Positions 49,087 to 64,000 of a stretch of DNA of 64,000 nt are shown here, piece by piece. The notes beneath the pieces are model-generated. The model did no database searches, had not been told where the DNA came from, and saw nothing but the letters and a program-made list of their open reading frames with translations. The translations under genes and the position numbers were made by a program. Origin of the DNA: Allacma fusca (lineage: Eukaryota > Arthropoda > Collembola > Symphypleona > Sminthuridae). Location: assembly GCA_947179485.1 (NCBI GenBank), contig OX359246.1:51067632-51131631 (forward strand), given 5' to 3'. Position 1 is the stretch's first letter. Each line of letters opens with the position of its first letter.

Positions 49087-49170
49087 TGTGATGACATATT
49101 AATTATGATCATGTCTTGTACTCGTATTTATGCTATTACACATTTATTGGAATCATGTATGAATGAGTTT

Positions 49171-49403
49171 ACATGTATGTCATACCGTCTATTGCATGAG
49201 TACTGTATGTCATACCCCCTATTGTATGTGTATTGTATGTCATACCCCCTATTGTATGTGTACTGTATGCCATACCCCCTATTGTATGTGTATTGTATGT
49301 CATACCCCCTATTGTATGTGGAGTGTATGCCATACCCCCTATTGTATGTGTATTGTATGTCATACCCCCTATTGTATGTGTACTGTATGCCATACCCCCT
49401 ATT
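49171..49403 (+). repeat. 30-bp tandem repeats with palindrome GTATGNCATAC, 5' LTR
   Basis: Eight units at an exact 30-bp period, each with an 11-bp palindrome (5-bp arms around one base) starting at 49,175, 49,205, 49,235, 49,265, 49,295, 49,325, 49,355 and 49,385. The centre base is T in the first three and then alternates C, T, C, T, C, so later units form a 60-bp dimer pattern. The rest of the unit is a CCCCCTATTGTATGTG block. Palindromes repeated about three helical turns apart in U3 look like a multimeric protein-binding array (enhancer, silencer or insulator). Function is inferred; no known factor site is claimed. Confidence 0.9.
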
Positions 49404-49432
49404 TACACGTGTCATGTAATGCTTGTATGGCC

Positions 49433-49449
49433 CCAGTACTGTGTACTGG
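49433..49449 (+). promoter_or_regulatory. Perfect inverted repeat in U3 (7-bp arms, 3-base loop)
   Basis: CCAGTAC at 49,433-49,439 and its reverse complement GTACTGG at 49,443-49,449 are separated by TGT. The identical structure is in the 3' LTR (56,190-56,206). It may be a protein-binding dyad or an RNA hairpin; which is not decidable from sequence. Confidence 0.6.
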
Positions 49450-49478
49450 AATACCCTTTCTAAAAACCAAAGGTATGA

Positions 49479-49508
49479 CTAAGCCCAGTTCCTGGAATTA
49501 GGGCTTAG
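49479..49508 (+). promoter_or_regulatory. Perfect 8-bp inverted repeat with 14-base loop in U3
   Basis: CTAAGCCC at 49,479-49,486 pairs with GGGCTTAG at 49,501-49,508. It lies about 95 bp upstream of the TATA box. It is conserved in the 3' LTR (56,236-56,265). It could be a dyad binding site or, in 3'-LTR readthrough RNA, a hairpin. No terminator U-tract of the bacterial kind is implied. Confidence 0.6.
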
Positions 49509-49588
49509 CCTTTTTATATGCCATGAGTCATAGCTGGCAATCCCAAATACTGTACTGGACCTGACCGTCCCTTTCACTTTTGTTACTC

Positions 49589-49614
49589 GGCCTTTTGCCA
49601 TATAAGCAAAGGCC
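49589..49614 (+). promoter_or_regulatory. LTR core promoter: TATA box inside an inverted repeat
   Basis: CATATAAG (TATAAG at 49,601-49,606) is a good TATA match, placed about 80 bp before the poly(A) signal as expected for the U3/R border. It is framed by a near-perfect inverted repeat, GGCCTTTTGC at 49,589-49,598 and GCAAAGGCC at 49,606-49,614, which differ by one base in length. Transcription would start about 25-35 bp downstream, near 49,630. A second AT-rich TTTTTATATG near 49,511 is a weaker alternative. Confidence 0.65.
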
Positions 49615-49678
49615 CTTTCTCTTTCCATACACTTGAATTTTGTCTCTTGAGGAGGTTACTCTGCCCAATTCACTCCTG

Positions 49679-49684
49679 AATAAA
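49679..49684 (+). promoter_or_regulatory. Poly(A) signal AATAAA in the 5' LTR
   Basis: A canonical AATAAA followed within about 20-40 bases by T-rich and GT-containing sequence. The 5' copy should be bypassed in the genomic transcript; the equivalent in the 3' LTR (56,436-56,441) would be the functional one. The R/U5 border would then lie near 49,700. Confidence 0.7.
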
Positions 49685-49754
49685 CTTTTACTACGGTTTT
49701 TAACTTTATTGAAATCTGTTCTTGTTACGAACCATTTCTTGATTATTCATCACA

Positions 49755-49768
49755 TGGTAGCTAGAGCG
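49755..49768 (+). promoter_or_regulatory. Primer-binding site, initiator-Met-tRNA-like
   Basis: The sequence directly after the LTR is TGGTAGCTAGAGCG. TGG is complementary to the CCA tail of any tRNA. TGGTAGC followed by AGAGC matches the complement of the usual animal initiator-Met tRNA 3' end, except for one inserted T. There is no spacer after the LTR. Drosophila copia is known to prime from an internal cut of initiator Met tRNA; here the 3' end appears to be used. Primer identity is moderately certain because of the inserted base. Confidence 0.6.
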
Positions 49769-49945
49769 TTAGGTATTTTCTACGGAATTTAAATTGTGGA
49801 TACTGGAATTTAGTTTACAAATTCAGTTCAATTTGAAGTTAGAATATTCTACGCAAGTTTTGATCAGTTCTAGTGAAGTTTCAGTTGGTTTTGAGAGTAT
49901 TTTGATTAAATAAATTCAATTTGTGTCAAATTTTACCCGAGCAAA
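49769..49945 (+). other. 5' untranslated leader of the element
   Basis: AT-rich leader between the primer site and the start codon. It has no long reading frame and several weak T-rich stretches. The region just before the start reads ACCCGAGCAAAATG; the A at -3 and the CAAAATG context fit invertebrate initiation. It would hold any packaging signal, but nothing recognisable is visible. Confidence 0.6.
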
Positions 49946-50845
49946 ATGTCTAAAGTCAAGTCTGACGTCATCGTGAAGTTGAACGGATCAAACTTCAACC
50001 GGTGGAAGTTCCAGGTTACCTTGCTGCTGAAGACCCACGACCTATGGGAAATAGTACTAGGAGTTGCAGACAGACCAGACGATGATGAAGGGATCAAGGC
50101 CTGGATCAAGAAGGATTTGGAAGCTCAAAACATCATCTCCTCAACGGTGGATGACGTCCAATTCAATCACATTTACACGTGTGAGTCATCCTACGAGATG
50201 TTCGAGAAGCTGAAGGAGGCAAACTCAGACTGCAGCTCACTGAATATCCAGCATACGTTGACCAAATTCATGACGTACACCATTGGGAAGGATGAGTCAC
50301 CGGTTGCTGCCATGATGGAGATTGAGAAGTTGGCCCACGCACTCGCGGAAATGGGGATGGGACAACCGGAGCAGACGGTAATTACCAAAATTGTATCATC
50401 TCTCCCCAGGAAATATTCAACTTTAAGGACAGCCTGGAATATCATCCCACTGAAGCACCAAACCCTGGTTGCTTTGAAGGCCCTGCTAAAGAAGGAGGAA
50501 TTTCAGATGCAGGCGGATGAGTCACAAGTCCAGGAGGAAGAGGCAACGGCTGCAAAGGCGTTCCGGTTCAACGTTAAAGGGGAGAAGAAAGACTCCAAGG
50601 AACTGCCCAAGAAGGACGATGGAAGACCTGCCAAACCCAAGGGGAAGTGTTTCAACTGTGGAAAAGCAGGACACTTCAAGAGGGATTGCAGATCCAAGCC
50701 TAAGGAGCAGTCCAGGGACGATGAAAGAAGCGGGAACGGCCGGGCATTTGGGTTCAATGCAGCAAGCACATCCAGAGCACCGACAAATGGACAAGGAAGG
50801 AGAGGGAACTCCAAGGATACAACAGTGGTTAGAGCATTCACAGGA
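49946..50845 (+). other. Gag region of the polyprotein
   Basis: Residues 1-300. The N-terminus has the Copia-type Gag signature (LNGSNFNRW at 12-20, then LLLKTHDLW at 26-34), followed by a helical capsid-like domain to about residue 190 and a lysine-rich linker. A CCHC zinc knuckle follows: C235, C238, H243, C248 (spacing C-x2-C-x4-H-x4-C), as in nucleocapsid. It should form the virus-like particle and bind genomic RNA. No stop or frameshift separates it from protease, unlike many retroelements, so the Gag-to-Pol ratio must be set another way. In Drosophila copia this is done by splicing. Confidence 0.9.
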
Positions 50846-53800
50846 AGATCCGATGACTCATCAGCTGGTGACTGGATCAGTGACTCAGGCGCTACAAACC
50901 ATGTATGTGGGAACAAGGACTGGTTTTCATCCTACACGCCTTTCCCAGAGGACGAGACGAGGAAAATCATCCTTGCTGACAACGCGAGCATCCAAGCTAT
51001 AGGACAAGGCGTTGTAACTCTGGAGGCATTCCTAGGCAACAAATGGGAGGAAATTAGGATAGAAGACGTGTTCTACATCCCTGGAGCTGCTAACCTGTTC
51101 TCGGAAGGACTTGTGGCCCGTAAGACTGGATACAACATCCTGAGGTCAGCGGAAAAGGCTGTGTACTACCGCAAGGACAAGCTTCCAGGACCAGTGGCGT
51201 ATGTCAAAAACAACGTCTACGTGATGAAGTTCCGGCCCATCTGCATGGAAATCCGCGCCAATGTAATCAAGTTTCTTCCCAAGGATCAAACGGCTAAACT
51301 TTGGCACGACAGGATGACTCACATCAACCCACGCTACGTCAAGGAGACGGCACGCAAAGGAGCTGTCAAGGGATTGGACTCCGTGGACGTGAGAGGGGAC
51401 TTCCATTGTGAAGACTGCATCATGGGAAAACAGGCCAGAAAACCTTTTCCAAGGGTCACTACAGTGGACAACTTCAAACCAGCCGAGAAGCTCTACGCTG
51501 ATTTAGCGGGAAAGATGCCGGTTCCATCACTTGGAGGGGCAAACTACTACCTCCTGATCAAGGATCATGCTACGGGATTCCGGTTTGCATACTTCCTGAA
51601 TACGAAGGATGAGACCACGGCATGTGTCAAGGACTGCGTAGCCTACCTGGAGAACCAGACCGGGACTACAGTAAAGAAGTTCATGACTGACAACGGTACG
51701 GAATTCGTAAATAAAAATTTGAAAACTTTTTTCCGGGAGAACGGCATCCATCATGAGACGTCGGCTCCATATTGCCCCGAGAGCAACGGGAAAATCGAGA
51801 GGGAGAATAGGACCATCAAGGACTGCGCCAGGACCATCCTCGTTGCAGCTGATCTCCCACAATTCCTATGGGCTGAGGCAGTGTCGACAACTGTTTATGT
51901 GCACAACCGTGTACTGGATAAGCAAAGTCCGGACATCACTGCCTTCGAAGCCATCTTTAAAAAGAAACCGTCCGTTGGCCATTTACGCGTGTTTGGATGC
52001 ACGGCGTATGCACACATCCCGGATCCAAAGAGGAAGGCTTTTGACCCCAAAAGCACGAAAATGGTGCTAGTTGGATACTGTGGAGAGAGCAAGTACCGGC
52101 TCTACAACGAAGCAACCAACGAAATCCACGAATCCAGGAACGTCACCTTTTGCGAAGAAAAGGAGGAATACGTCGAACTGAAGAGGCCTGTTGCAGCCAA
52201 CAAGCCAGCAGTTCCAACCCCGAGAAGGAAGATCATCCCTCAGCCCATTTACTCTTCATCAAGCGATGACAGCGATGGAAATGATGATGACAACTCATTC
52301 CATGACGCAAATGGCGCAGAACACCTGCCTGACGACGCTCCACTGTTCTCGGATGCAGAAACGACGGAATCGTCAGGAGACTCATCATCACCGCCTACTC
52401 CAGGAAGGTCGGACCCAGCCCCAACCACATCAACTCCAGGGTCATCCAGGACTCGTCGAGTGATTGTCCATACGCCGGATGGAGACTTTGTGGCTGATGT
52501 TCCAGAAGGACAGGATGCCGAGCTAACCATCCCAGGTCAGAAGAAATACAAAGGATGGTTCAAGCCAACTATAACGAAGTCTAGACTCAGGTCAGGAGCC
52601 AAGGATGCAGCCAAGGATGCTGCCAGCAACGCTCCAAAGAAGCTCTTTGCATCACGGATAGTAGATGAGCCAACCACTTACAAGCAAGCCTTGGCGTCTC
52701 CAAATAAACTGAATTGGATCCAAGCCATGGCAGAGGAAGTTGCCAGCCAGGAAGCCAACCAGTCGTGGGAAGTTGTGCCAAAACCACCCCGTGTAAAGCT
52801 CCTGGACACTAAATGGGTATTCAAGGTCAAGACCAACCAGGATGGATCCATTCAGCGTTACAAGGCTCGCTTGGTCATCCGTGGATACCGACAGGAAGAA
52901 GGAGTGGATTACTTCGAGACGTTTGCAGCTGTAGCCCGCTACGAGTCAATCCGACTTCTCCTCAACATTGCGGCCTCGCAGAAACTCTTCATGGAGCAGT
53001 TTGATGTCAAAACTGCATTCCTGCATGGAGACCTGGACGAGGAAATATACGTCAAGATACCCCAAGGATATGAAGTCGACGGGGATGACAAGGTCTTGCG
53101 GCTCCTAAAAAGCATCTACGGATTGAAGCAATCACCCCGATGCTGGAATAAGAAGCTATCGGATTGCCTAGCCGCCCTTGGACTCCAAGCTGCCCAACAC
53201 GAGCCCAGCGTGTTTTTCGGGAAGATCAGCGGCCAACTCGTAATTCTTGCTATATATGTGGATGATGGGCTCATCATGTCTGCCAACAAGGCCGTGCTGC
53301 ATGGAGTTCTGGACGGAATTTCAAAATCTTTTGAAATCACCCGTGGATCCCCAACAAGCTACGTGGGATTGGAAATTCACCAATCCGCATCTGGAAGCAT
53401 CAGGATCACCCAGCGGAAGTACGTGGAGAAGATGCTGGAAAAATTCCACATGGATGATTCTCACCCTTGCAGCGTTCCCCTGCAGCCCTATACGGACTTG
53501 GTCCCTTCAAAGGAAATCAACGAGGATCTTCCTTATAGGCAATTAATTGGCTCCCTTATCTTTTTAGCCAAGTGTTCGCGCCCGGACATTTCCTTTTCCG
53601 TATCCAGATTGGCCCAATTCATGAGCGGATACGACGAAACTCACTGGAAAGCTGCCAAAAACGTGCTGCGTTACCTCAAAGGAACACTGGACATGGGCAT
53701 CACATACAGCACCGGGGGCAACATGAGACTCGTTGGATACACGGACTCGGATTACGCTGGAGACAAGCTCAGCAGGAAATCCACCACAGGGACAGCAATC

Positions 53801-55786
53801 TTCCTTAACGACGGGATCGTGTCTTGGACAAGCCAGAAGCAACCCTGTGTAGCCCTGTCATCAACGGAGGCTGAGTACATCGCTTTGGCATCCGGAGCAA
53901 GGGAAGCAGTCTGGCTAAGGTCTCTGTTGGACGAATTGGACTTCCCCCAGGACGAACCTACAAAAATCCTGGTGGACAACCAGAGTGCCATCCGATTGGT
54001 GAAGAATCCCGAGATGCACTCCAGGACGAAGCACATTGATGTGCGTTACCATTACATCAGGGAACTTGTAGAGGACGACCAAATCAGCGTGGACTACATC
54101 CCAACAACGGAGCAGCTTGCTGACGGCTTAACGAAGCCTCTGATGAAGGGAAAGCTGGAGGAGAATCGCACCGGACTAGGACTTACGCAAGTCACCCCAA
54201 CCAGCAAGAGGACGCAGGGAAAGGGTCCATTCTCCCCTCTTCTAGCCGTGGCAATCCTTTCGGTGCTAACCGTATGCAGCGCAACCTCGGATCACCACAC
54301 GCCGCCCGTATTATGGAGGAAAAGCGACACCCCTATAACTACTGGGCATCACCAAATCAGCCTACAAGTGGATTTTGTCAACCCCTGTGACATTATAGGC
54401 AATTCATCATTTCACCACGATCTGACGAAAGAGGCGCGGCTACGATGCCTACAGGCCTACGACAGCATCTTTGTAAAGGAACTTAAGATGATGTGCCCCC
54501 AAAACCGATGGACGCAAATTGGAAGTCGCCAGAAGCGTTTTGTGGACCTGTTAATCCTGCTTATTGTAATTTCAGTAGTTGCCAGCATCTCACTGGGAGT
54601 TGGAGGAACGGCAACCGCTGCTGTCAATTCTGCTAAACTGGGATCTCTGGAAAATCGGGAAATTTTGGTGGGAGACATGCTGAACGATTTGGAGCGCCAA
54701 ATCAAACGAAATCACGAGGACATTCGGAACCTGACGATCAAGTTCAACAGTGCAATGGGAAACTTGAGCATCTTACAAGCCGACCACGATGAGCTGAAGG
54801 GAAAGTCAATAGGAACAAACTTCGCCATTTCCTACTTTATCAGCCGGTTCTTGATTGGAAAGACTGTGATCCAGGAGGCCAACAGGGAATGGAAGCAAGG
54901 ACGAGTCAGCGGGGCATTCTTGGACTATTTCAACCTGACGCTGCCGTGCGGGGACCAGTGCCCCATTCACCTCGCAAAACCCCAAAGATGTGGCATCTCC
55001 GAGGACGGAACCAAACTCTACATGGAGTTCTCCTCACCCGTAGTCAGCCAGGATCTTACCCTAGTTGAAGCGGACCCTTTTGACCTGATGGCGAGGAAAG
55101 GAGACAAGACGTGCATGATCAAGTACACAGGACCTAGGAACGCCATCCTTTCGGAAGTTAACCAATGCGTTTACTCCGTCAACGTGAAGCATCCGATCAA
55201 GCACGATCTCATCCTGGCCCCATCCAGAGGATGCATGCCCAGGACGAAGAGCTCCAACGAAACCAAGCACTTCAGCATCGATCATTGCGAGAAGCGCCAA
55301 CCGTTGGATGAGCTCAACTTTATCCAAATCAAGCCCTACAATGGTCAATACCATATCTACTGCCCAGAATCCAACCTAACCGTTGAAGGAGTAGAAAACC
55401 GATGTCCAAACGACGTGGTCATCTTCCCAATGAGGACGAACTTCACCATCAACGACTTGGAGTTCTCTGGATCCCGGATCAGCATATCCCATCAGGAGAC
55501 CTTGGACCCAGTCTTTACTGTGAAGACAAATTGGCATCTCCAACCAATGGTCAACTGGACCTCACTTATGAAGGAAATCAACGCAACGGACGATTTCCAT
55601 GAAGTCAGCATTGCAGACTTCCATTACATTAACAACTATTGGTCAACCATAGGATGCGTGTCAATTATTTTCCTGATGGCCATTGTACTCATCTGCATGC
55701 TGAAAAGACGAAACAATGAACCATTGAGAGTCTCTGTACTAGCTACACCTATTTCTGATAATATACAAATGCGTGCTATTAATTAA
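49946..55786 (+). CDS. Copia Gag-Pol polyprotein fused in frame to an envelope-like glycoprotein (1,946 aa)
   Basis: This one frame encodes all the element's proteins. Domains in order: Gag (about 1-300, zinc knuckle 235-248), aspartic protease (about 305-400, DSG at 313-315), integrase (about 445-735; H454, H459, C488, C491; D519, D582, E618), reverse transcriptase (about 935-1185; D1020, YVDD at 1104-1107), RNase H (about 1260-1400; D1267, E1308, D1344, D1365) and an envelope-like region (about 1421-1946). Gag-Pol of about 1,413 residues matches the size of the Drosophila copia polyprotein (1,409); the remaining ~530 residues are additional. All catalytic residues I can check are present and there is no internal stop or frameshift, so the protein looks intact. 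The start is the first ATG after the leader, in good context, and begins a typical Copia Gag N-terminus (LNGSNFNRW at 12-20). How the env part is separated from pol is not evident. Confidence 0.97.
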   Translation: MSKVKSDVIVKLNGSNFNRWKFQVTLLLKTHDLWEIVLGVADRPDDDEGIKAWIKKDLEAQNIISSTVDDVQFNHIYTCESSYEMFEKLKEANSDCSSLNIQHTLTKFMTYTIGKDESPVAAMMEIEKLAHALAEMGMGQPEQTVITKIVSSLPRKYSTLRTAWNIIPLKHQTLVALKALLKKEEFQMQADESQVQEEEATAAKAFRFNVKGEKKDSKELPKKDDGRPAKPKGKCFNCGKAGHFKRDCRSKPKEQSRDDERSGNGRAFGFNAASTSRAPTNGQGRRGNSKDTTVVRAFTGRSDDSSAGDWISDSGATNHVCGNKDWFSSYTPFPEDETRKIILADNASIQAIGQGVVTLEAFLGNKWEEIRIEDVFYIPGAANLFSEGLVARKTGYNILRSAEKAVYYRKDKLPGPVAYVKNNVYVMKFRPICMEIRANVIKFLPKDQTAKLWHDRMTHINPRYVKETARKGAVKGLDSVDVRGDFHCEDCIMGKQARKPFPRVTTVDNFKPAEKLYADLAGKMPVPSLGGANYYLLIKDHATGFRFAYFLNTKDETTACVKDCVAYLENQTGTTVKKFMTDNGTEFVNKNLKTFFRENGIHHETSAPYCPESNGKIERENRTIKDCARTILVAADLPQFLWAEAVSTTVYVHNRVLDKQSPDITAFEAIFKKKPSVGHLRVFGCTAYAHIPDPKRKAFDPKSTKMVLVGYCGESKYRLYNEATNEIHESRNVTFCEEKEEYVELKRPVAANKPAVPTPRRKIIPQPIYSSSSDDSDGNDDDNSFHDANGAEHLPDDAPLFSDAETTESSGDSSSPPTPGRSDPAPTTSTPGSSRTRRVIVHTPDGDFVADVPEGQDAELTIPGQKKYKGWFKPTITKSRLRSGAKDAAKDAASNAPKKLFASRIVDEPTTYKQALASPNKLNWIQAMAEEVASQEANQSWEVVPKPPRVKLLDTKWVFKVKTNQDGSIQRYKARLVIRGYRQEEGVDYFETFAAVARYESIRLLLNIAASQKLFMEQFDVKTAFLHGDLDEEIYVKIPQGYEVDGDDKVLRLLKSIYGLKQSPRCWNKKLSDCLAALGLQAAQHEPSVFFGKISGQLVILAIYVDDGLIMSANKAVLHGVLDGISKSFEITRGSPTSYVGLEIHQSASGSIRITQRKYVEKMLEKFHMDDSHPCSVPLQPYTDLVPSKEINEDLPYRQLIGSLIFLAKCSRPDISFSVSRLAQFMSGYDETHWKAAKNVLRYLKGTLDMGITYSTGGNMRLVGYTDSDYAGDKLSRKSTTGTAIFLNDGIVSWTSQKQPCVALSSTEAEYIALASGAREAVWLRSLLDELDFPQDEPTKILVDNQSAIRLVKNPEMHSRTKHIDVRYHYIRELVEDDQISVDYIPTTEQLADGLTKPLMKGKLEENRTGLGLTQVTPTSKRTQGKGPFSPLLAVAILSVLTVCSATSDHHTPPVLWRKSDTPITTGHHQISLQVDFVNPCDIIGNSSFHHDLTKEARLRCLQAYDSIFVKELKMMCPQNRWTQIGSRQKRFVDLLILLIVISVVASISLGVGGTATAAVNSAKLGSLENREILVGDMLNDLERQIKRNHEDIRNLTIKFNSAMGNLSILQADHDELKGKSIGTNFAISYFISRFLIGKTVIQEANREWKQGRVSGAFLDYFNLTLPCGDQCPIHLAKPQRCGISEDGTKLYMEFSSPVVSQDLTLVEADPFDLMARKGDKTCMIKYTGPRNAILSEVNQCVYSVNVKHPIKHDLILAPSRGCMPRTKSSNETKHFSIDHCEKRQPLDELNFIQIKPYNGQYHIYCPESNLTVEGVENRCPNDVVIFPMRTNFTINDLEFSGSRISISHQETLDPVFTVKTNWHLQPMVNWTSLMKEINATDDFHEVSIADFHYINNYWSTIGCVSIIFLMAIVLICMLKRRNNEPLRVSVLATPISDNIQMRAIN
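50181..50186 (+). promoter_or_regulatory. Candidate splice donor in gag
   Basis: ACACGT followed by GTGAGT: the intron side matches the donor consensus well, the exon side only partly. It is the best donor-like site I see in the first ~450 nt of the transcript. The exon would end after the first base of codon 79. It matters only in combination with the acceptor at 54,230-54,245, which has the same phase. Confidence 0.35.
50858..51145 (+). other. Aspartic protease region
   Basis: Residues about 305-400. The active-site triad is D313-S314-G315 in the Copia-type DSGATNHV motif, followed by the ILADN flap-region motif at 342-346 and a hydrophobic strand around 366-385. As in other retroelements one subunit would supply half of a dimeric active site. 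It should process Gag, integrase and RT-RNase H. Whether it also cuts between RNase H and the env-like region is unknown. Confidence 0.88.
51278..52150 (+). other. Integrase region
   Basis: Residues about 445-735. The N-terminal zinc site is H454, H459, C488 and C491 (H-x4-H...C-x2-C). The catalytic core has D519 (LYADLAG), D582 (TDNGTEF) and E618 (NGKIERENR); D582 and E618 are separated by exactly 35 residues, the classic DDE spacing. The C-terminal part has the Copia pattern VFGCTAY (683-689) to SRNVTF (730-735). It lies before reverse transcriptase, which defines the Ty1/Copia order. An acidic, serine-rich linker (about 770-830) follows. Copia integrases normally create 5-bp target duplications, which makes their absence here notable. 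Confidence 0.93.
52748..54184 (+). other. Reverse transcriptase and RNase H region
   Basis: Residues about 935-1413. RT (RVT_2 type) starts near SWEVV, with KWVFKVK at 956-962, the first catalytic aspartate D1020 in FDVKTAFLHG, the SIYGLKQSPRCW motif at 1056-1067 and the YVDD catalytic box at 1104-1107. RNase H follows with D1267 (YTDSDYAG), E1308 (SSTEAEY), D1344 (VDNQSAI) and D1365 (KHIDVRYH). The region closes with ADGLTKPL (1392-1399) and a GLGL end at about 1413, as Copia polyproteins usually finish. In an ordinary Copia element a stop codon would come within a few residues; here the frame continues. Confidence 0.95.
54206..55786 (+). other. Envelope-like glycoprotein region (class I fusogen architecture)
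   Basis: Residues about 1421-1946. A basic stretch and a hydrophobic core (1431-1443) ending near A1446 look like an internal signal peptide. The ectodomain (about 1447-1898) has 12 cysteines and N-glycosylation sequons at 1486, 1595, 1606, 1663, 1771, 1810, 1832, 1870 and 1879. A furin-type site RQKR lies at 1528-1531, directly followed by a long hydrophobic, glycine- and alanine-rich segment (1532-1561) resembling a fusion peptide. A seven-heptad hydrophobic repeat spans 1565-1617. A transmembrane segment (about 1899-1919) is followed by KRR and a ~27-residue tail. The short first subunit and long second subunit resemble the layout of insect errantivirus and baculovirus F proteins, but I cannot assign the family by eye. 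Alternatively 1532-1555 could be a second membrane span. Confidence 0.85.
54230..54245 (+). promoter_or_regulatory. Candidate splice acceptor at the pol/env border
   Basis: TTCTCCCCTCTTCTAG is an uninterrupted pyrimidine tract ending in TAG, a strong acceptor-like signal, placed within ~25 codons of the end of pol and inside the signal-peptide codons of env. The downstream exon would begin at the second base of codon 1434. Retroviral and errantiviral env genes are normally expressed from RNA spliced at this position. In the full-length frame it simply encodes the hydrophobic stretch, so selection on protein could also explain it. Confidence 0.45.
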
Positions 55787-55834
55787 ATCATCTCATCGTG
55801 TTTGTGTATTTGCTTTTGTTTTATATTTGTGATT
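55787..55834 (+). other. Short 3' untranslated segment
   Basis: A 48-bp T-rich spacer between the stop codon (TAA at 55,784-55,786) and the polypurine tract. I see no further reading frame or structure in it. It leaves no room for an accessory gene between env and the LTR. Confidence 0.7.
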
Positions 55835-55843
55835 GAGGGAAAG
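55835..55843 (+). promoter_or_regulatory. Polypurine tract
   Basis: GAGGGAAAG, nine purines directly abutting the TGTG of the 3' LTR, preceded by a T-rich stretch. This is the expected primer for plus-strand DNA synthesis after RNase H digestion, and its exact adjacency confirms the LTR boundary. Confidence 0.85.
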
Positions 55844-56511
55844 TGTGATGACATATTAATTATGATCATGTCTTGTACTCGTATTTATGCTATTACACAT
55901 TTATTGGAATCATGTATGAATGAGTTTACATGTATGTCATACCGTCTATTGCATGAGTACTGTATGTCATACCCCCTATTGTATGTGTATTGTATGTCAT
56001 ACCCCCTATTGTATGTGGAGTGTATGCCATACCCCCTATTGTATGTGTATTGTATGTCATACCCCCTATTGTATGTGGAGTGTATGCCATACCCCCTATT
56101 GTATGTGTATTGTATGTCATACCCCCTATTGTATGTGTACTGTATGCCATACCCCCTATTTACACGTGTCATGTAATGCTTGTATGGCCCCAGTACTGTG
56201 TACTGGAATACCCTTTCTAAAAACCAAAGGTATGACTAAGCCCAGTTCCTGGAATTAGGGCTTAGCCTTTTTATATGCCATGAGTCATAGCTGGCAATCC
56301 CAAATACTGTACTGGACCTGACCGTCCCTTTCACTTTTGTTACTCGGCCTTTTGCCATATAAGCAAAGGCCCTTTCTCTTTCCATACACTTGAATTTTGT
56401 CTCTTGAGGAGGTTACTCTGCCCAATTCACTCCTGAATAAACTTTTACTACGGTTTTTAACTTTATTGAAATCTGTTCTTGTTACGAACCATTTCTTGAT
56501 TATTCATCACA
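55844..56511 (+). repeat. 3' long terminal repeat
   Basis: 668 bp, same length and termini as the 5' LTR. The only differences I find are two bases in the third GTATGTG unit, where it reads GTGGAGTG as in a neighbouring unit. It contains the same inverted repeats, TATA box (56,358-56,363) and AATAAA (56,436-56,441). The latter would end the element's transcripts; the TATA box could drive readthrough into the satellite downstream. Confidence 0.97.
55928..56160 (+). repeat. 30-bp tandem repeats with palindrome GTATGNCATAC, 3' LTR
   Basis: Eight units, with palindromes starting at 55,932 and every 30 bp to 56,142. Compared with the 5' LTR, the third unit has the GAG-type spacer of the fifth unit. 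That is better explained by template slippage or gene conversion between units than by two independent point mutations. Confidence 0.9.
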
Positions 56512-59500
56512 TGTAGTCACTGTTTCAGGTGTTTGCTGAACTCGTCAGAATCTCCTCATACTTTGATAGTACACTCGGTCAGTCTGAAAAAGCTAAATTC
56601 TCGAATTTGAGATGAATCGGAAAACTAAGAATAGCATGTCAGTGCTGTGGTCACTTTTTCAGGTGTTTGCTGAACTCGTCCGAATCTCCTTAAACTTTAG
56701 GAATACACTCGGCTAGTCTGCCAAAGCCAAATCCTCGAATTTGAGATGAATCGAAACACTTTAAAAATGCGATGAAAATGACGTGTTGTTGCTCTGGTCA
56801 CTTTTTCAGGTGTTTGCTGAACTGGTCTAAATCTCTTTAAACTTTGGGAATACATTCCGGGGGTCTGCCAAAACTCAATTCTCGAATTTGAGATGAATCA
56901 AAAACTAAACATAAGGAAATTGACATGACGTTGCTCTGGTCACATTTTTGATGTTTGCTGAACTCGTCAGAATCTCCTCATACTTTGATAGTACACTCGG
57001 TCAGTCTGAAAAAGCTAAATTGTCGAATTTGAGATGAATCGAAAAACTAAAAATAGCATGTCAGTGCTGTGGTCACTTTTTCAGGTTTGCTGAACTCGTC
57101 CGAATCTCCTTAAACTTTAGGAATACACTCGGCTAGTCTGCCAAAGCCAAATCCTCGAATTTGAGATGAATCGAAACACTTTAAAAATGCGATGAAAATG
57201 ACGTGTCGTTCCTCTGGTTACTTTTCAGGTGTTTGCTGAACTGGTCTAAATCTCTTTAAACTTTAATAATACATTCCGGGGGTCTGCCAAAACTCAATCC
57301 TCGAATTTGATATGAATCGGAAAACTAAAAATAGCGATGCAAATAGTACTTCGGTGCTGTAGTCACTGTTTCAGGTGTTTGCTGAACTCGTCAGAATCTC
57401 CTCATACTTTGATAGAACACTCGGTCAGTCTGAAAAAGCTAAATTGTCGAACTTCAGATGAATCGAAAAACTAAAAATAGCATGTCAGTGCTGTGGTCAC
57501 TTTTTCAGGTGTTTGCTGAACTCGTCCGAATCTCCTTAAACTTTAGGAATACACTCGGCTAGTCTGCCAAAGCCAAATCCTCGAATTTGAGATGAATCGA
57601 AACACTTTAAAAATGCGATGAAAATGACGTGTTGTTGTTCTGGTCACTTTTTCAGGTGTTTGCTGAACTGGTCTAAATCTCTTTAAACTTTGGGAATACA
57701 TTCCGGGGGTCTGCCAAAACTCAATTCTCGAATTTGAGATGAATCGAAAAACTAAAAATAGCATGTCAGTGCTGTGGTCACTTTTTCAGGTGTTTGCTAA
57801 ACTCGTCCGAATCTCCTTAAACTTTAGGAATACACTCGGCTAGTCTGCCAAAGCCAAATCCTCGAATTTGAGATGAATCGAAACACTTTAAAAATGCGAT
57901 GAAAATGACGTGTCGTTCCTCTGGTTACTTTTCAGGTGTTTGCTGAACTGGTCCAAATCTCTTTAAACTTTAATAATACATTCCGGGGGTCTGCCAAAAC
58001 TCAATTCTCGAATTTGATATGAATCGGAAAACTAAAAATAGCGATGCAAATAGTATTTCGGCGCTGTAGTCACTGTTTCAGGTGTTTGCTGAACTCGTCA
58101 GAATCTCCTCATACTTTGATAGTACACTCGGTCAGTCTGAAAAAGCTAAATTCTCGAATTTGAGATGAATCGGAAAACTAAGAATAGCATGTCAGTGCTG
58201 TGGTCACTTTTTCAGGTGTTTGCTGAACTCGTCCGAATCTCCTTTAACTTTAGGAATACACTCGGCTAGTCTGCCAAAGCCAAATCCTCGAATTTGAGAT
58301 GAATCGAAACACTTTAAAAATGCGATGAAAATGACGTGTTGTTGCTCTGGTCACTTTTTCAGGTGTTTGCTGAACTGGTCTAAATCTCTTTAAACTTTGG
58401 GAATACATTCCGGGGGTCTGCCAAAACTCAATTCTCGAATTTGAGATGAATCAAAAACTAAACATAAGGAAATTGACATGACGTTGCTCTGGTCACATTT
58501 TTGATGTTTGCTGAACTCGTCAGAATCTCCTCATACTTTGATAGTACACTCGGTCAGTCTGAAAAAGCTAAATTGTCGAATTTGAGATGAATCGAAAAAC
58601 TAAAAATAGCATGTCAGTGCTGTGGTCACTTTTTCAGGTTTGCTGAACTCGTCCGAATCTCCTTAAACTTTAGGAATACACTCGGCTAGTCTGCCAAAGC
58701 CAAATCCTCGAATTTGAGATGAATCGAAACACTTTAAAAATGCGATGAAAATGACGTGTCGTTCCTCTGGTTACTTTTCAGGTGTTTCCTGAACTGGTCT
58801 AAATCTCTTTAAACTTTAATAATACATTCCGGGGGTCTGCCAAAACTCAATTCTCGAATTTGATATGAATCGGAAAACTAAAAATAGCGATGCAAATAGT
58901 ACTTCGGTGCTGTAGTCACTGTTTCAGGTGTTTGCTGAACTCGTCAGAATCTCCTCATACTTTAATAGAACACTCGGTCAGTCTGAAAAAGCTAAATTGT
59001 CGAATTTGAGATGAATCGAAAAACTAAAAATAGCATGTCAGTGCTGTGGTCACTTTTTCAGGTGTTTGCTGAACTCGTCCGAATCTCCTTAAACTTTAGG
59101 AATACACTCGGCTAGTCTGCCAAAGCCAAATCCTCGAATTTGAGATGAATCAAAAACTAAACATAAGGAAATTGACATGACGTTGCCCTGGTCACATTTT
59201 TGATGTTTGATGAACCCCTTAGAATCTCCTCATACTTTAATAGAACACTCGGTCAGTCTGAAAAAGCTAAATTGTCGAATTTGAGATGAATCGAAAAACT
59301 TAAAATAGCATGTCAGTGCTGTGGTCACTTTTTCAGGTTTGCTGAACTCGTCCGAATCTCCTTAAACTTTAGGAATACACTCGGCTAGTCTGCCAAAGCC
59401 AAATCCTCGAATTGGAGATGAATCGAAACACTTTAAAAATGCGATGAAAATGACGTGTTGTTGCTCTGGTCACTTTTTCAGGTGTTTGCTGAACTGGTCT

Positions 59501-62500
59501 AAATCTCTTTAAACTTTAATAATACATTCCGGGGGTCTGCCAAAACTCAATTCTCGAATTTGAGATGAATCAAAAACTAAACATAAGGAAATTGACATGA
59601 CGTTGCTCTGGTCACATTATTGATGTTTGCTGAACTTGTCAGAATCTCCTCGTACTTTGATAGTACACTCGGTCAGTCTGAAAAAGCTAAATTGTCGAAT
59701 TTGAGATGAATCGAAAAACTAAAAATAGCATCAGTGCTGTGGTCACTTTTTCAGGTGGTTGCTAAACTCGTCCGAATCTCCTTAAACTTTAGGAATACAC
59801 TCGGCTAGTCTGCCAAAGCCAAATCCTCGAATTTGAGATGAATCGAAACACTTTAAAAATGCGATGAAAATGACGTGTCGTTCCTCTGGTTACTTTTCAG
59901 GTGTTTGCTGAACTGGTCTAAATCTCTTTAAACTTTAATAATACATTCCGGGGGTCTGCCAAAACTCAATTCTCGAATCTGATATGAATCGGAAAACTAA
60001 AAATAGCGATGCAAATAGTACTTCGGTGCTGTAGTCACTGTTTCAGGTGTTTGCTGAACTCGTCAGAATCTCCTCATACTTTAATAGAACACTCGGTCAG
60101 TCTGAAAAAGCTAAATTGTCGAATTTGAGATGAATCGAAAAACTAAAAATAGCATGTCATTGCTGTGGTCACTTTTTCAGGTGTTTGCTGAACTCGTCCG
60201 AATCTCCTTAAACTTTAGGAATACACTCGGCTAGTCTGCCAAAGCCAAATCCTCGAATTTGAGATGAATCAAAAACTAAACATAAGGAAATTGACATGAC
60301 GTTGCTCTGGTCACATTTTTGATGTTTGCTGAACTCGTCAGAATCTCCTCATACTTTAATAGAACACTCGGTCAGTCTGAAAAAGCTAAATTGTCGAATT
60401 TGAGATGAATCGAAAAACTTAAAATAGCATGTCAGTGCTGTGGTCACTTTTTCAGGTGTTTGCTGAACTCGTCCGAATCTCCTTAAACTTTAGGAATACA
60501 CTCAGGCAGTCTGCCAAAGCCAAATCCTCGAATTTGAGATGGATCGAGACACTTTAAAAATGCGATGAAAATGACGTGTTGTTGCTCTGGTCAATTTTTC
60601 AGGTGTTTGCTGAACTGGTCTAAATCTCTTTAAACTTTGGGAATACATTCCGGGGGTCTGCCAAAACTCAATTCTCGAATTTGAGATGAATCAAAAACTA
60701 AACATAAGGAAATTGACATGACGTTGCTCTGGTCACATTTTTGATGTTTGCTGAACTCGTCAGAATCTCCTCATACTTTGATAGTACACTCGGTCAGTCT
60801 GAAAAAGCTAAATTGTCGAATTTGAGATGAATCGAAAAACTAAAAATAGCATGTCAGTGCTGTGGTCACTTTTTCAGGTTTGCTGAACTCGTCCGAATCT
60901 CCTTAAACTTTAGGAATACACTCGGCTAGTCTGCCAAAGCCAAATCCTCGAATTTGAGATGAATCGAAACACTTTAAAAATGCGATGAAAATGACGTGTC
61001 GTTCCTCTGGTTACTTTTCAGGTGTTTCCTGAACTGGTCTAAATCTCTTTAAACTTTAATAATACATTCCGGGGGTCTGCCAAAACTCAATTCTCGAATT
61101 TGATATGAATCGGAAAACTAAAAATAGCGATGCAAATAGTACTTCGGTGCTGTAGTCACTGTTTCAGGTGTTTGCTGAACTCGTCAGAATCTCCTCATAC
61201 TTTGATAGAACACTCGGTCAGTCTGAAAAAGCTAAATTGTCGAATTTCAGATGAATCGAAAAACTAAAAATAGCATGTCAGTGCTGTGGTCAGTTTTTCA
61301 GGTGTTTGCTGAACTCGTCCGAATCTCCTTAAACTTTAGGAATACACTCGGCTAGTCTGCCAAAGCCAAATCCTCGAATTTGAGATGAATCAAAAACTAA
61401 ACTCAAGGAAATTGACATGACGTTGCCCTGGTCACATTTTTGATGTTTGATGAACCCCTTAGAATCTCCTCATACTTTAATAGAACACTCGGTCAGTCTG
61501 AAAAAGCTAAATTGTCGAATTTGAGATGAATCGAAAAACTTAAAATAGCATGTCAGTGCTGTGGTCACTTTTTCAGGTTTGCTGAACTCGTCCGAATCTC
61601 CTTAAACTTTAGGAATACACTCGGCTAGTCTGCCAAAGCCAAATCCTCGAATTTGAGATGAATCGAAACACTTTAAAAATGCGATGAAAATGACGTGTTG
61701 TTGCTCTGGTCACTTTTTCAGGTGTTTGCTGAACTGGTCTAAATCTCTTTAAACTTTGGGAATACATTCCGGGGGTCTGCCAAAACTCAATTCTCGAATT
61801 TGAGATGAATCAAAAACTAAACATAAGGAAATTGACATGACGTTGCTCTGGTCACATTATTGATGTTTGCTGAACTTGTCAGCATCTCCTCGTACTTTGA
61901 TAAAACACTCGGTCAGTCTGAAAAAGCTAAATTGTCGAATTTGAGATGAATCGAAAAACTAAAAATAGCATCAGTGCTGTGGTCACTTTTTCAGGTGTTT
62001 GCTAAACTCGTCCGAATCTCCTTAAACTTTAGGAATACACTCGGCTAGTCTGCCAAAGCCAAATCCTCGAATTTGAGATGAATCGAAACACTTTAAAAAT
62101 GCGATGAAAATGACGTGTCGTTCCTCTGGTTACTTTTCAGGTGTTTGCTGAACTGGTCCAAATCTCTTTAAACTTTAATAATACATTCCGGGGGTCTGCC
62201 AAAACTCAATTCTCGAATTTGATATGAATCGGAAAACTAAAAATAGCGATGCAAATAGTACTTCGGTGCTGTAGTCACTGTTTCAGGTGTTTGCTGAACT
62301 CGTCAGAATCTCCTCATACTTTGATAGTACACTCGGTCAGTCTGAAAAAGCTAAATTCTCGAATTTGAGATGAATCGGAAAACTAAGAATAGCATGTCAG
62401 TGCTGTGGTCACTTTTTCAGGTGTTTGCTGAACTCGTCCGAATCTCCTTAAACTTTAGGAATACACTCGGCTAGTCTGCCAAAGCCAAATCCTCGAATTG

Positions 62501-64000
62501 GAGATGAATCGAAACACTTTAAAAATGCGATGAAAATGACGTGTTGTTGCTCTGGTCACTTTTTCAGGTGTTTGCTGAACTGGTCTAAATCTCTTTAAAC
62601 TTTAATAATACATTCCGGGGGTCTGCCAAAACTCAATTCTCGAATTTGAGATGAATCAAAAACTAAACATGAGGAAATTGACATGACGTTGCTCTGGTCA
62701 CATTATTGATGTTTGCTGAACTTGTCAGAATCTCCTCGTACTTTGATAGTACACTCGGTCAGTCTGAAAAAGCTAAATTGTCGAATTTGAGATGAATCGA
62801 AAAACTAAAAATAGCATCAGTGCTGTGGTCACTTTTTCAGGTGGTTGCTAAACTCGTCCGAATCTCCTTAAACTTTAGGAATACACTCGGCTAGTCTGCC
62901 AAAGCCAAATCCTCGAATTTGAGATGAATCGAAACACTTTTAAAATGCGATGAAAATGACGTGTCGTTCCTCTGGTTACTTTTCAGGTGTTTGCTGAACT
63001 GGTCTAAATCTCTTTAAACTTTAATAATACATTCCGGGGGTCTGCCAAAACTCAATTCTCGAATCTGATATGAATCGGAAAACTAAAAATAGCGATGCAA
63101 ATAGTACTTCGGTGCTGTAGTCACTGTTTCAGGTGTTTGCTGAACTCGTCAGAATCTCCTCATACTTTAATAGAACACTCGGTCAGTCTGAAAAAGCTAA
63201 ATTGTCGAATTTGAGATGAATCGAAAAACTAAAAATAGCATGTCATTGCTGTGGTCACTTTTTCAGGTGTTTGCTGAACTCGTCCGAATCTCCTTAAACT
63301 TTAGGAATACACTCGGCTAGTCTGCCAAAGCCAAATCCTCGAATTTGAGATGAATCAAAAACTAAACATAAGGAAATTGACATGACGTTGCTCTGGTCAC
63401 ATTTTTGATGTTTGCTGAACTCGTCAGAATCTCCTCATACTTTAATAGAACACTCGGTCAGTCTGAAAAAGCTAAATTGTCGAATTTGAGATGAATCGAA
63501 AAACTTAAAATAGCATGTCAGTGCTGTGGTCACTTTTTCAGGTGTTTGCTGAACTCGTCCGAATCTCCTTAAACTTTAGGAATACACTCAGGCAGTCTGC
63601 CAAAGCCAAATCCTCGAATTTGAGATGGATCGAGACACTTTAAAAATGCGATGAAAATGACGTGTTGTTGCTCTGGTCAATTTTTCAGGTGTTTGCTGAA
63701 CTGGTCTAAATCTCTTTAAACTTTGGGAATACATTCCGGGGGTCTGCCAAAACTCAATTCTCGAATTTGAGATGAATCAAAAACTAAACATAAGGAAATT
63801 GACATGACGTTGCTCTGGTCACATTATTGATGTTTGCTGAACTTGTCAGCATCTCCTCGTACTTTGATAAAACACTCGGTCAGTCTGAAAAAGCTAAATT
63901 GTCGAATTTGAGATGAATCGAAAAACTAAAAATAGCATCAGTGCTGTGGTCACTTTTTCAGGTGTTTGCTAAACTCGTCCGAATCTCCTTAAACTTTAGG
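56512..64000. repeat. Satellite family B, continuation downstream of the element
   Basis: Same monomer types and orientation as 27,932-49,086, continuing in the same monomer phase after the element. Higher-order structure is seen again: the damaged monomer with TTGATGAACCCCTTAG occurs near 59,208 and 61,448 (offset 2,240 bp), and the CTCGAATCTGATATG variant recurs near 59,975 and 63,059 (offset about 3,085 bp). A four-base deletion variant, TTTTTCAGGTTTGCTG, is common here (57,080; 58,632; 59,331; 60,872; 61,572) and rare before the element. No gene is visible; the array runs off the window end. Confidence 0.95.

Follow-up and report, generated by a model that had tools for sequence, protein, structure and literature searches.

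A young springtail Ty1/Copia element that probably carries a class I, F-type fusion glycoprotein in frame with pol

The DNA analyzed here, called the window, is a stretch of 64,000 nucleotides from the springtail Allacma fusca (contig OX359246.1, positions 51,067,632 to 51,131,631 of the forward strand), located at 51.07-51.13 Mb on the chromosome 2 contig. Positions 49087-56511 of the window hold a complete and recent Ty1/Copia retrotransposon, embedded in satellite DNA, whose single open reading frame (ORF) runs through gag and pol and continues into an envelope-like (env) region. We consider it quite probable that this is a young copy of a springtail Ty1/Copia lineage carrying a class I fusion glycoprotein of the paramyxovirus-F/baculovirus-F type. 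The best reading of the evidence is an old capture of env by a springtail Copia lineage, kept for spread between cells.

Judged from its domains, the Gag-Pol part can without doubt be assigned to Ty1/Copia (Pseudoviridae) (Table 1). It has a Copia Gag and a reverse transcriptase (RT) of the RVT_2 family, the Pfam matches place the integrase before the RT, the long terminal repeats (LTRs) have TG...CA ends, and sister copies are flanked by 5-bp duplications. Three other assignments were rejected. An errantivirus (Ty3/Gypsy) would need the order protease, RT, RNase H, integrase, whereas here the integrase precedes an RT of the RVT_2 family; BEL/Pao was set aside because RVT_2 was the sole RT family matched in Pfam; and a sirevirus would require a plant host, the host here being a springtail. 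We know of no fusogen fold in a sirevirus env.

An earlier note on this DNA, made from the letters alone, had described a complete Copia Gag-Pol ending in GLGL, followed in the same frame by about 530 residues with a signal peptide, an RQKR site, a fusion-peptide-like segment, a heptad repeat, nine glycosylation sequons, twelve ectodomain cysteines, and a C-terminal anchor. That description is borne out. Pfam domains extend from Gag through RT, GLGL occupies residues 1410-1413, and the frame continues beyond it without an inner stop, positions 54206-55783 encoding 526 residues. Hydrophobic peaks coincide with the signal peptide, the fusion-peptide-like segment, and the anchor, and the heptad repeat appears as a long helix in the structural model. 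The 526-residue part contains nine N-X-S/T sequons and 15 cysteines, 12 of which lie between signal peptide and anchor (residues 1481-1820); five cysteines of the F1 beta domain are invariant across 32 alignment rows, and seven across 22 rows. The pattern [RK]-x-[KR]-R is present in 17 of 20 relatives (L009-L028), two others (L016 and L017) lacking the site and the match of the third (L020) beginning past it. The window Env thus has the layout of a class I F-type protein, with a basic site, an adjoining hydrophobic fusion segment, a heptad helix, and an anchor.

Predicted structure allows the class of this Env to be named. AlphaFold2 models were made for two Env proteins that are 28% identical to each other, and for both of these medium-confidence models the best PDB match is a paramyxovirus or pneumovirus F protein (Foldseek E values of 6e-10 and 2e-9); all of the 50 PDB and 50 VIA matches listed per model are F proteins of these two groups. 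Class II and class III fusogens are not among the PDB fold matches listed, although no dedicated test of their absence was made. In a fold search of a viral library the best match was baculovirus F, with arthropod mononegavirus glycoproteins nearly as good. Since several virus groups score at E <1e-5 in that library, the fold match identifies a class and not a donor; on the models, Env can now be placed in class I, F-type (paramyxovirus-F/baculovirus-F type).

Sequence searches point to no named family. At a threshold of 0.001 the window Env matched nothing in Pfam, NCBIfam, or PHROGs, and two divergent Envs had no Pfam match. Stray Pfam matches among 32 relatives, to AI-2E_transport (best E 3.2e-4; 4 of 32 at E up to 1) and Tweety (0.028; 5 of 32), are taken for membrane and coiled-coil noise. 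A PDB sequence profile was rejected as evidence of homology, a phage needle and coiled coils scoring with or above the F proteins, and was kept for register only. The matches listed by a phmmer search of Env against 5.8 billion proteins all belong to this env family, within the limited reach of a word-based method; so do those listed for a 22-row Env profile, with no errantivirus or baculovirus protein among them, and no Env match was confirmed in prokaryote genome contigs or viral contigs. That the capture took place independently of errantivirus env can only be presumed, since no donor emerged at the sequence level and both errantiviruses and TelKA, a group of LTR elements of bdelloid rotifers, also have an F-type env (PMC5408684).

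The env region recurs on a genome-wide scale. Searches of the springtail's own genome covered 392.74 Mb in 91 contigs; the published assembly has 392.8 Mb in 95 scaffolds, with chromosomes 1-4, X1, and X2, from a species whose males show an unusual chromosome loss (PMC10427803). Copia RT places were found with PF07727 (150 scored out of 221 candidates), and env was counted where it lay no more than 4 kb downstream on the same strand. At least 129 of the 150 RT places have an env downstream. Direct inspection of 20 loci without env in the window-Env search found an env in 19. Among the 21 RT places left over, four were inspected, two of which (L141 and L142) hold env pieces. The window Env found at least 83 places at identities from 100% to 30%, and a divergent Env at least 90, in a list overlapping the first. 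Eleven families, defined by env less than 90% identical, keep an unbroken Gag-Pol-Env frame of 1910-2216 residues (C1:14196724 and C1:46446194 being counted as one family). A second family looks to have been active recently: it has 25 places with open frames of 2144-2147 residues on six large contigs and accounts for 25 of the 27 full-length rows that the divergent-Env search gave at 87-88% identity. Its copies are spread along contigs, whereas those of the window's family are clustered.

Outside the window, two protein searches gave 16 and 12 Env homologues, of which P0004, P0010, and P0013 are common to both. Several are joined to Copia domains, and five of these are 1858-1927 residues long with gag through RT. 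Two are gene models of Folsomia candida (P0013 and P0018), P0017 belongs to Allacma fusca, and the others lie on further contigs. In the two Folsomia models, integrase-side Copia domains are fused to env without a recognized RT, with the fusion-peptide side beginning at the join in P0013; this structure may be a gene-model artefact, a deletion, or a real splice.

The env region shows signs of selection and of joint inheritance with pol. In six family pairs its synonymous sites are saturated, with proportions of differing sites of 0.74-0.86 at synonymous (pS) and 0.19-0.30 at nonsynonymous (pN) positions, and RT in those pairs gives a pS of 0.86-0.90 and a pN of 0.20-0.29. Among five close env pairs, the one at a synonymous divergence (dS) of 0.19 has a ratio of nonsynonymous to synonymous divergence (dN/dS) of 0.15, and the four at dS 0.006-0.027 have ratios of 0.11, 0.13, 0.14, and 0.45. 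These values indicate that env is under purifying selection. It also appears to have been inherited together with pol, as the RT and env trees of 28 common elements agree in 13 of 25 splits, against an average of 0.26 and a maximum of 3 after label shuffles. Near-copies inflate this agreement; the agreeing splits nonetheless include sets of 6, 9, and 10 rows. The Envs of the window, of L009, and of P0002, on another contig, form a supported set.

Several observations weigh against this interpretation. The models have a mean predicted local distance difference test (pLDDT) of only 69.3 and 70.5 and a predicted template modelling score (pTM) of 0.48, TM-scores of the matches are only 0.2-0.5, and the viral library at E <1e-5 also includes filovirus, torovirus, retrovirus, chu-related, and herpesvirus proteins. 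No Pfam fusion-protein family was matched by the window Env, its relatives, or the two divergent Envs, and the sequence matches to F proteins (PDB profile, E of about 0.01) rank among unrelated coiled coils. One very young env pair, at dS 0.01, has the dN/dS of 0.45. Both trees are unrooted; the positions of L013 and L019 conflict between them, with support, and six full or long rows from other contigs make up one set in the env tree (97/97) that is not in the RT tree, where the disagreement amounts to 2 changes and involves one long branch. No env was seen at two RT places, L110 (within about 3 kb) and L143 (within about 2.2 kb), though both have broken frames. The frame is lost in each at residue 387-388 past the RT start, and the two may represent either a separate env-less branch or a common broken ancestor.

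For its proposal that an animal Copia lineage had captured an env, the earlier note had suggested looking for other env-carrying copies, for a fusogen-like predicted structure, and for a match to a host membrane protein. The counts at RT places, the F-protein fold matches of the medium-confidence models, and the absence of a Pfam match at 0.001 other than the presumed noise leave that proposal well supported. The wider proposition, that springtails harbor old, diverse, and still active Copia elements that are in effect enveloped retroviruses, with Gag, Pol, and F-type Env made as one polyprotein, and that these are nearly the sole Copia kind in A. fusca, we regard as evenly poised.

How such an element might work is suggested by the junction of pol and env. 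The frame is stop-free in 15 of 17 junctions read (16 of them drawn from the window-Env places, with near-copies such as L063/L064 and L072/L073 included), and the linkers clearly differ in length and sequence. In the window's family, no Met separates GLGL from the signal peptide. That the frame stays constant while the linker does not speaks for translation as a polyprotein with an internal signal peptide; such internal signal peptides occur in some viral structural polyproteins. Under this scheme env would have been acquired before the Copia families of the A. fusca genome diversified, and the LTR transcript would be read as a Gag-Pol-Env polyprotein or be partly spliced. The internal signal peptide would direct the last 500 residues into the endoplasmic reticulum, signal peptidase would release Env, and a furin-like protease would cleave it at RQKR into linked F2 and F1 chains. 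Env trimers on membrane-wrapped particles could then fuse with other cells, and the particles could take their RNA from the soma into the germ line or from one animal to another. Expression, fusion, and infectivity are predictions of this scheme.

The alternative that survives best is that Env acts only within the animal: with its help, particles would leave somatic support cells and enter the germ line, and none would pass between animals. We place this reading slightly below an even balance. All of the evidence for a working Env fits it, errantiviruses have been described to pass from soma to germ line (PMC13269885, PMC13172572), and the young copies in A. fusca reflect recent germ-line insertion. 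The same evidence does not separate transfer within an animal from transfer between animals, and the env of P0002 nests beside the window's family, which may reflect host kinship or transfer.

A second alternative concerns the source of Env, which could have come by recombination from another retroelement, of errantivirus or TelKA-like kind, and not directly from a virus, whether of RNA or DNA type. Both groups are known to have an F-type env (PMC5408684, PMC5962544), and baculovirus F is the best fold match in the viral library. Sequence and profile searches, however, led to no protein of an errantivirus or baculovirus, and arthropod mononegavirus glycoproteins fit the fold nearly equally, so that we hold a retroelement donor to be a tentative option, clearly the less probable one.

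Much the same weight, well short of an even balance, can be given to Env being made from a separate spliced mRNA in place of a polyprotein. Errantiviruses and retroviruses use splicing for env, that of errantiviruses being a separate ORF expressed from spliced RNA, and where the env signal peptide begins there is a pyrimidine tract with an AG (ttctcccctcttctag). Splicing would not need the pol-env frame to stay open, as it does at the junctions and in the 11 families, and no phase-matched donor was seen by eye in 181 bases around the gag start. That the Env part is a host membrane protein or a chance, functionless read-on is very improbable: the lack of a named family for the window Env at 0.001 and the weak membrane-family matches of some relatives could be cited for it, but it is contradicted by the recurrence of env at RT places, by purifying selection, and by the fold matches.

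The insertions of this family are recent. The two LTRs of the window copy have perfect inverted ends and differ at two positions, both within a 30-bp minisatellite that is repeated about 7.7 times in each (49174-49403 and 55931-56160). Flanks were examined for 17 other near-identical copies. Eight have perfect 5-bp duplications (GCTAT, GATCA, CCCCG, TGTAG, ACTAT, ATTCC, and GTTGC twice), two (L029-L032, C8:51155231-51169712) form a tandem dimer with one common LTR and TACTA outside, two have duplications read by eye (AAAAG and GGGTA), and five have none, one of them (C9:1224775) despite both LTR ends being found. Two copies (L059-L062, C10:63520794 and C12:57883276) share the same flanks and GTTGC on different contigs, as after segmental duplication. 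The window copy has no target duplication in its flanks. Compared with the sister copy C8:50791694, which sits at the same point of the satellite and is flanked on either side by TGTAG, its left flank breaks off nine bases (GTGCTGTAG) earlier, and the window copy would seem either to have lost a few flank bases or to have been reshuffled within the array. The rest of the window (2-49077 and 56512-63998) is tandem satellite, with repeat units that measure about 134-148 bp and 420 bp. By eye, many insertions lie in satellite, with near-identical copies in similar arrays on C1, C8, C9, C10, and C12; this location may reflect a preference for satellite DNA or co-amplification with it.

Table 1. 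Features of the Copia element in the window, with the basis of each assignment
Feature	Position	Strand	Basis or remark
5' LTR	49087..49754	+	668 bp; termini TGTGATGA...TCATCACA; 30-bp tandem repeat at 49174-49403
Putative primer-binding site	49755..49773	+	TGGTAGC..., directly 3' of the 5' LTR; assigned by position
Single Gag-Pol-Env open frame	49946..55786	+	1946 aa; sole stop at end
Copia Gag (Retrotran_gag_2)	50021..50518	+	Pfam, E 1.5e-20
CCHC zinc knuckle (zf-CCHC)	50642..50692	+	Pfam, 1.7e-6
Pol beta-barrel domain, protease region (Pol_BBD)	50873..51118	+	Pfam, E 3.1e-19
GAG-pre-integrase domain	51215..51388	+	Pfam
Integrase core (rve) and SH3-like domain	51479..52165	+	Pfam, rve 1.6e-10, SH3_retrovirus 3.8e-28
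Copia-type reverse transcriptase (RVT_2)	52757..53485	+	Pfam, 5.3e-51
RNase H region to GLGL end	53486..54185	+	No Pfam match; presumed from the general Copia layout
Internal signal peptide	54221..54292	+	Hydrophobic peak, residues 1426-1449; no Met between GLGL and peak
F2-like chain	54293..54538	+	Ends in RQKR furin-type site, 54527-54538 (residues 1528-1531)
Fusion-peptide-like hydrophobic segment	54539..54625	+	Hydrophobic peak, residues 1529-1560
Long helix/heptad repeat A	54662..54895	+	Env model residues 153-230
Cys-rich beta domain of F1	54947..55405	+	Cys at residues 1668-1820
C-terminal membrane anchor	55634..55714	+	Hydrophobic peak, residues 1897-1923; short tail after
Polypurine tract	55835..55843	+	GAGGGAAAG, directly 5' of the 3' LTR
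3' LTR	55844..56511	+	668 bp

Gypsy-like elements became errantiviruses through env capture, which is also regarded as the route by which retroviruses arose. If our interpretation is right, Copia too can take the step from transposon to potential virus, these Envs are a new branch of F-type fusogens, and springtails are a place to test whether Copia particles spread from the soma into the germ line or from animal to animal.

The TelKA lineage is retrovirus-like and non-Copia. Its elements resemble the springtail element in their invertebrate carrier and in a class I, F-type env of about 600 residues that is closest to paramyxovirus F, and differ in that their env is ORF3, whereas the springtail env lies in frame with a Copia pol (PMC5408684). 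The insect errantiviruses gypsy and ZAM (Metaviridae) share with it an F-type env, a retrotransposon body, and arthropod hosts (PMC5962544, PMC13172572); they have a Ty3/Gypsy pol, and no likeness in sequence of their Env to the springtail Env was detected. Between baculovirus F itself and the springtail Env there is the fold match in the viral library and no Pfam match. Other known captures include the Gypsy errantiviruses, with their baculovirus-like env, and the Cer and Tas elements (PMC5962544). BEL/Pao elements with a chuvirus-type glycoprotein are likewise animal LTR retrotransposons with a captured viral glycoprotein (PMC7642597, PMC13172572; also PMC12440569), joined in their case to a BEL pol and belonging to the type III fusion glycoproteins (PMC13172572). 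The captures mentioned in the introduction of PMC12440569 are of baculovirus and chuvirus type, with none by Copia, and we found no env-bearing animal Copia in the open-licence literature of PubMed Central, a scope to which most subscription papers, bioRxiv, and Repbase do not belong. Plant Copia sireviruses such as SIRE-1 carry an additional frame downstream of pol, where an env would stand (PMC11599104, PMC5408684); their hosts are plants, and the function of that env is described as "still unclear" (PMC5408684). Drosophila Copia is an animal Copia reported to move between cells at the synapse, and the available part of the report describes a transfer of capsids and does not mention env (PMC11835246). 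Transfer between cells by an animal Copia is therefore not new in itself; an envelope would be.

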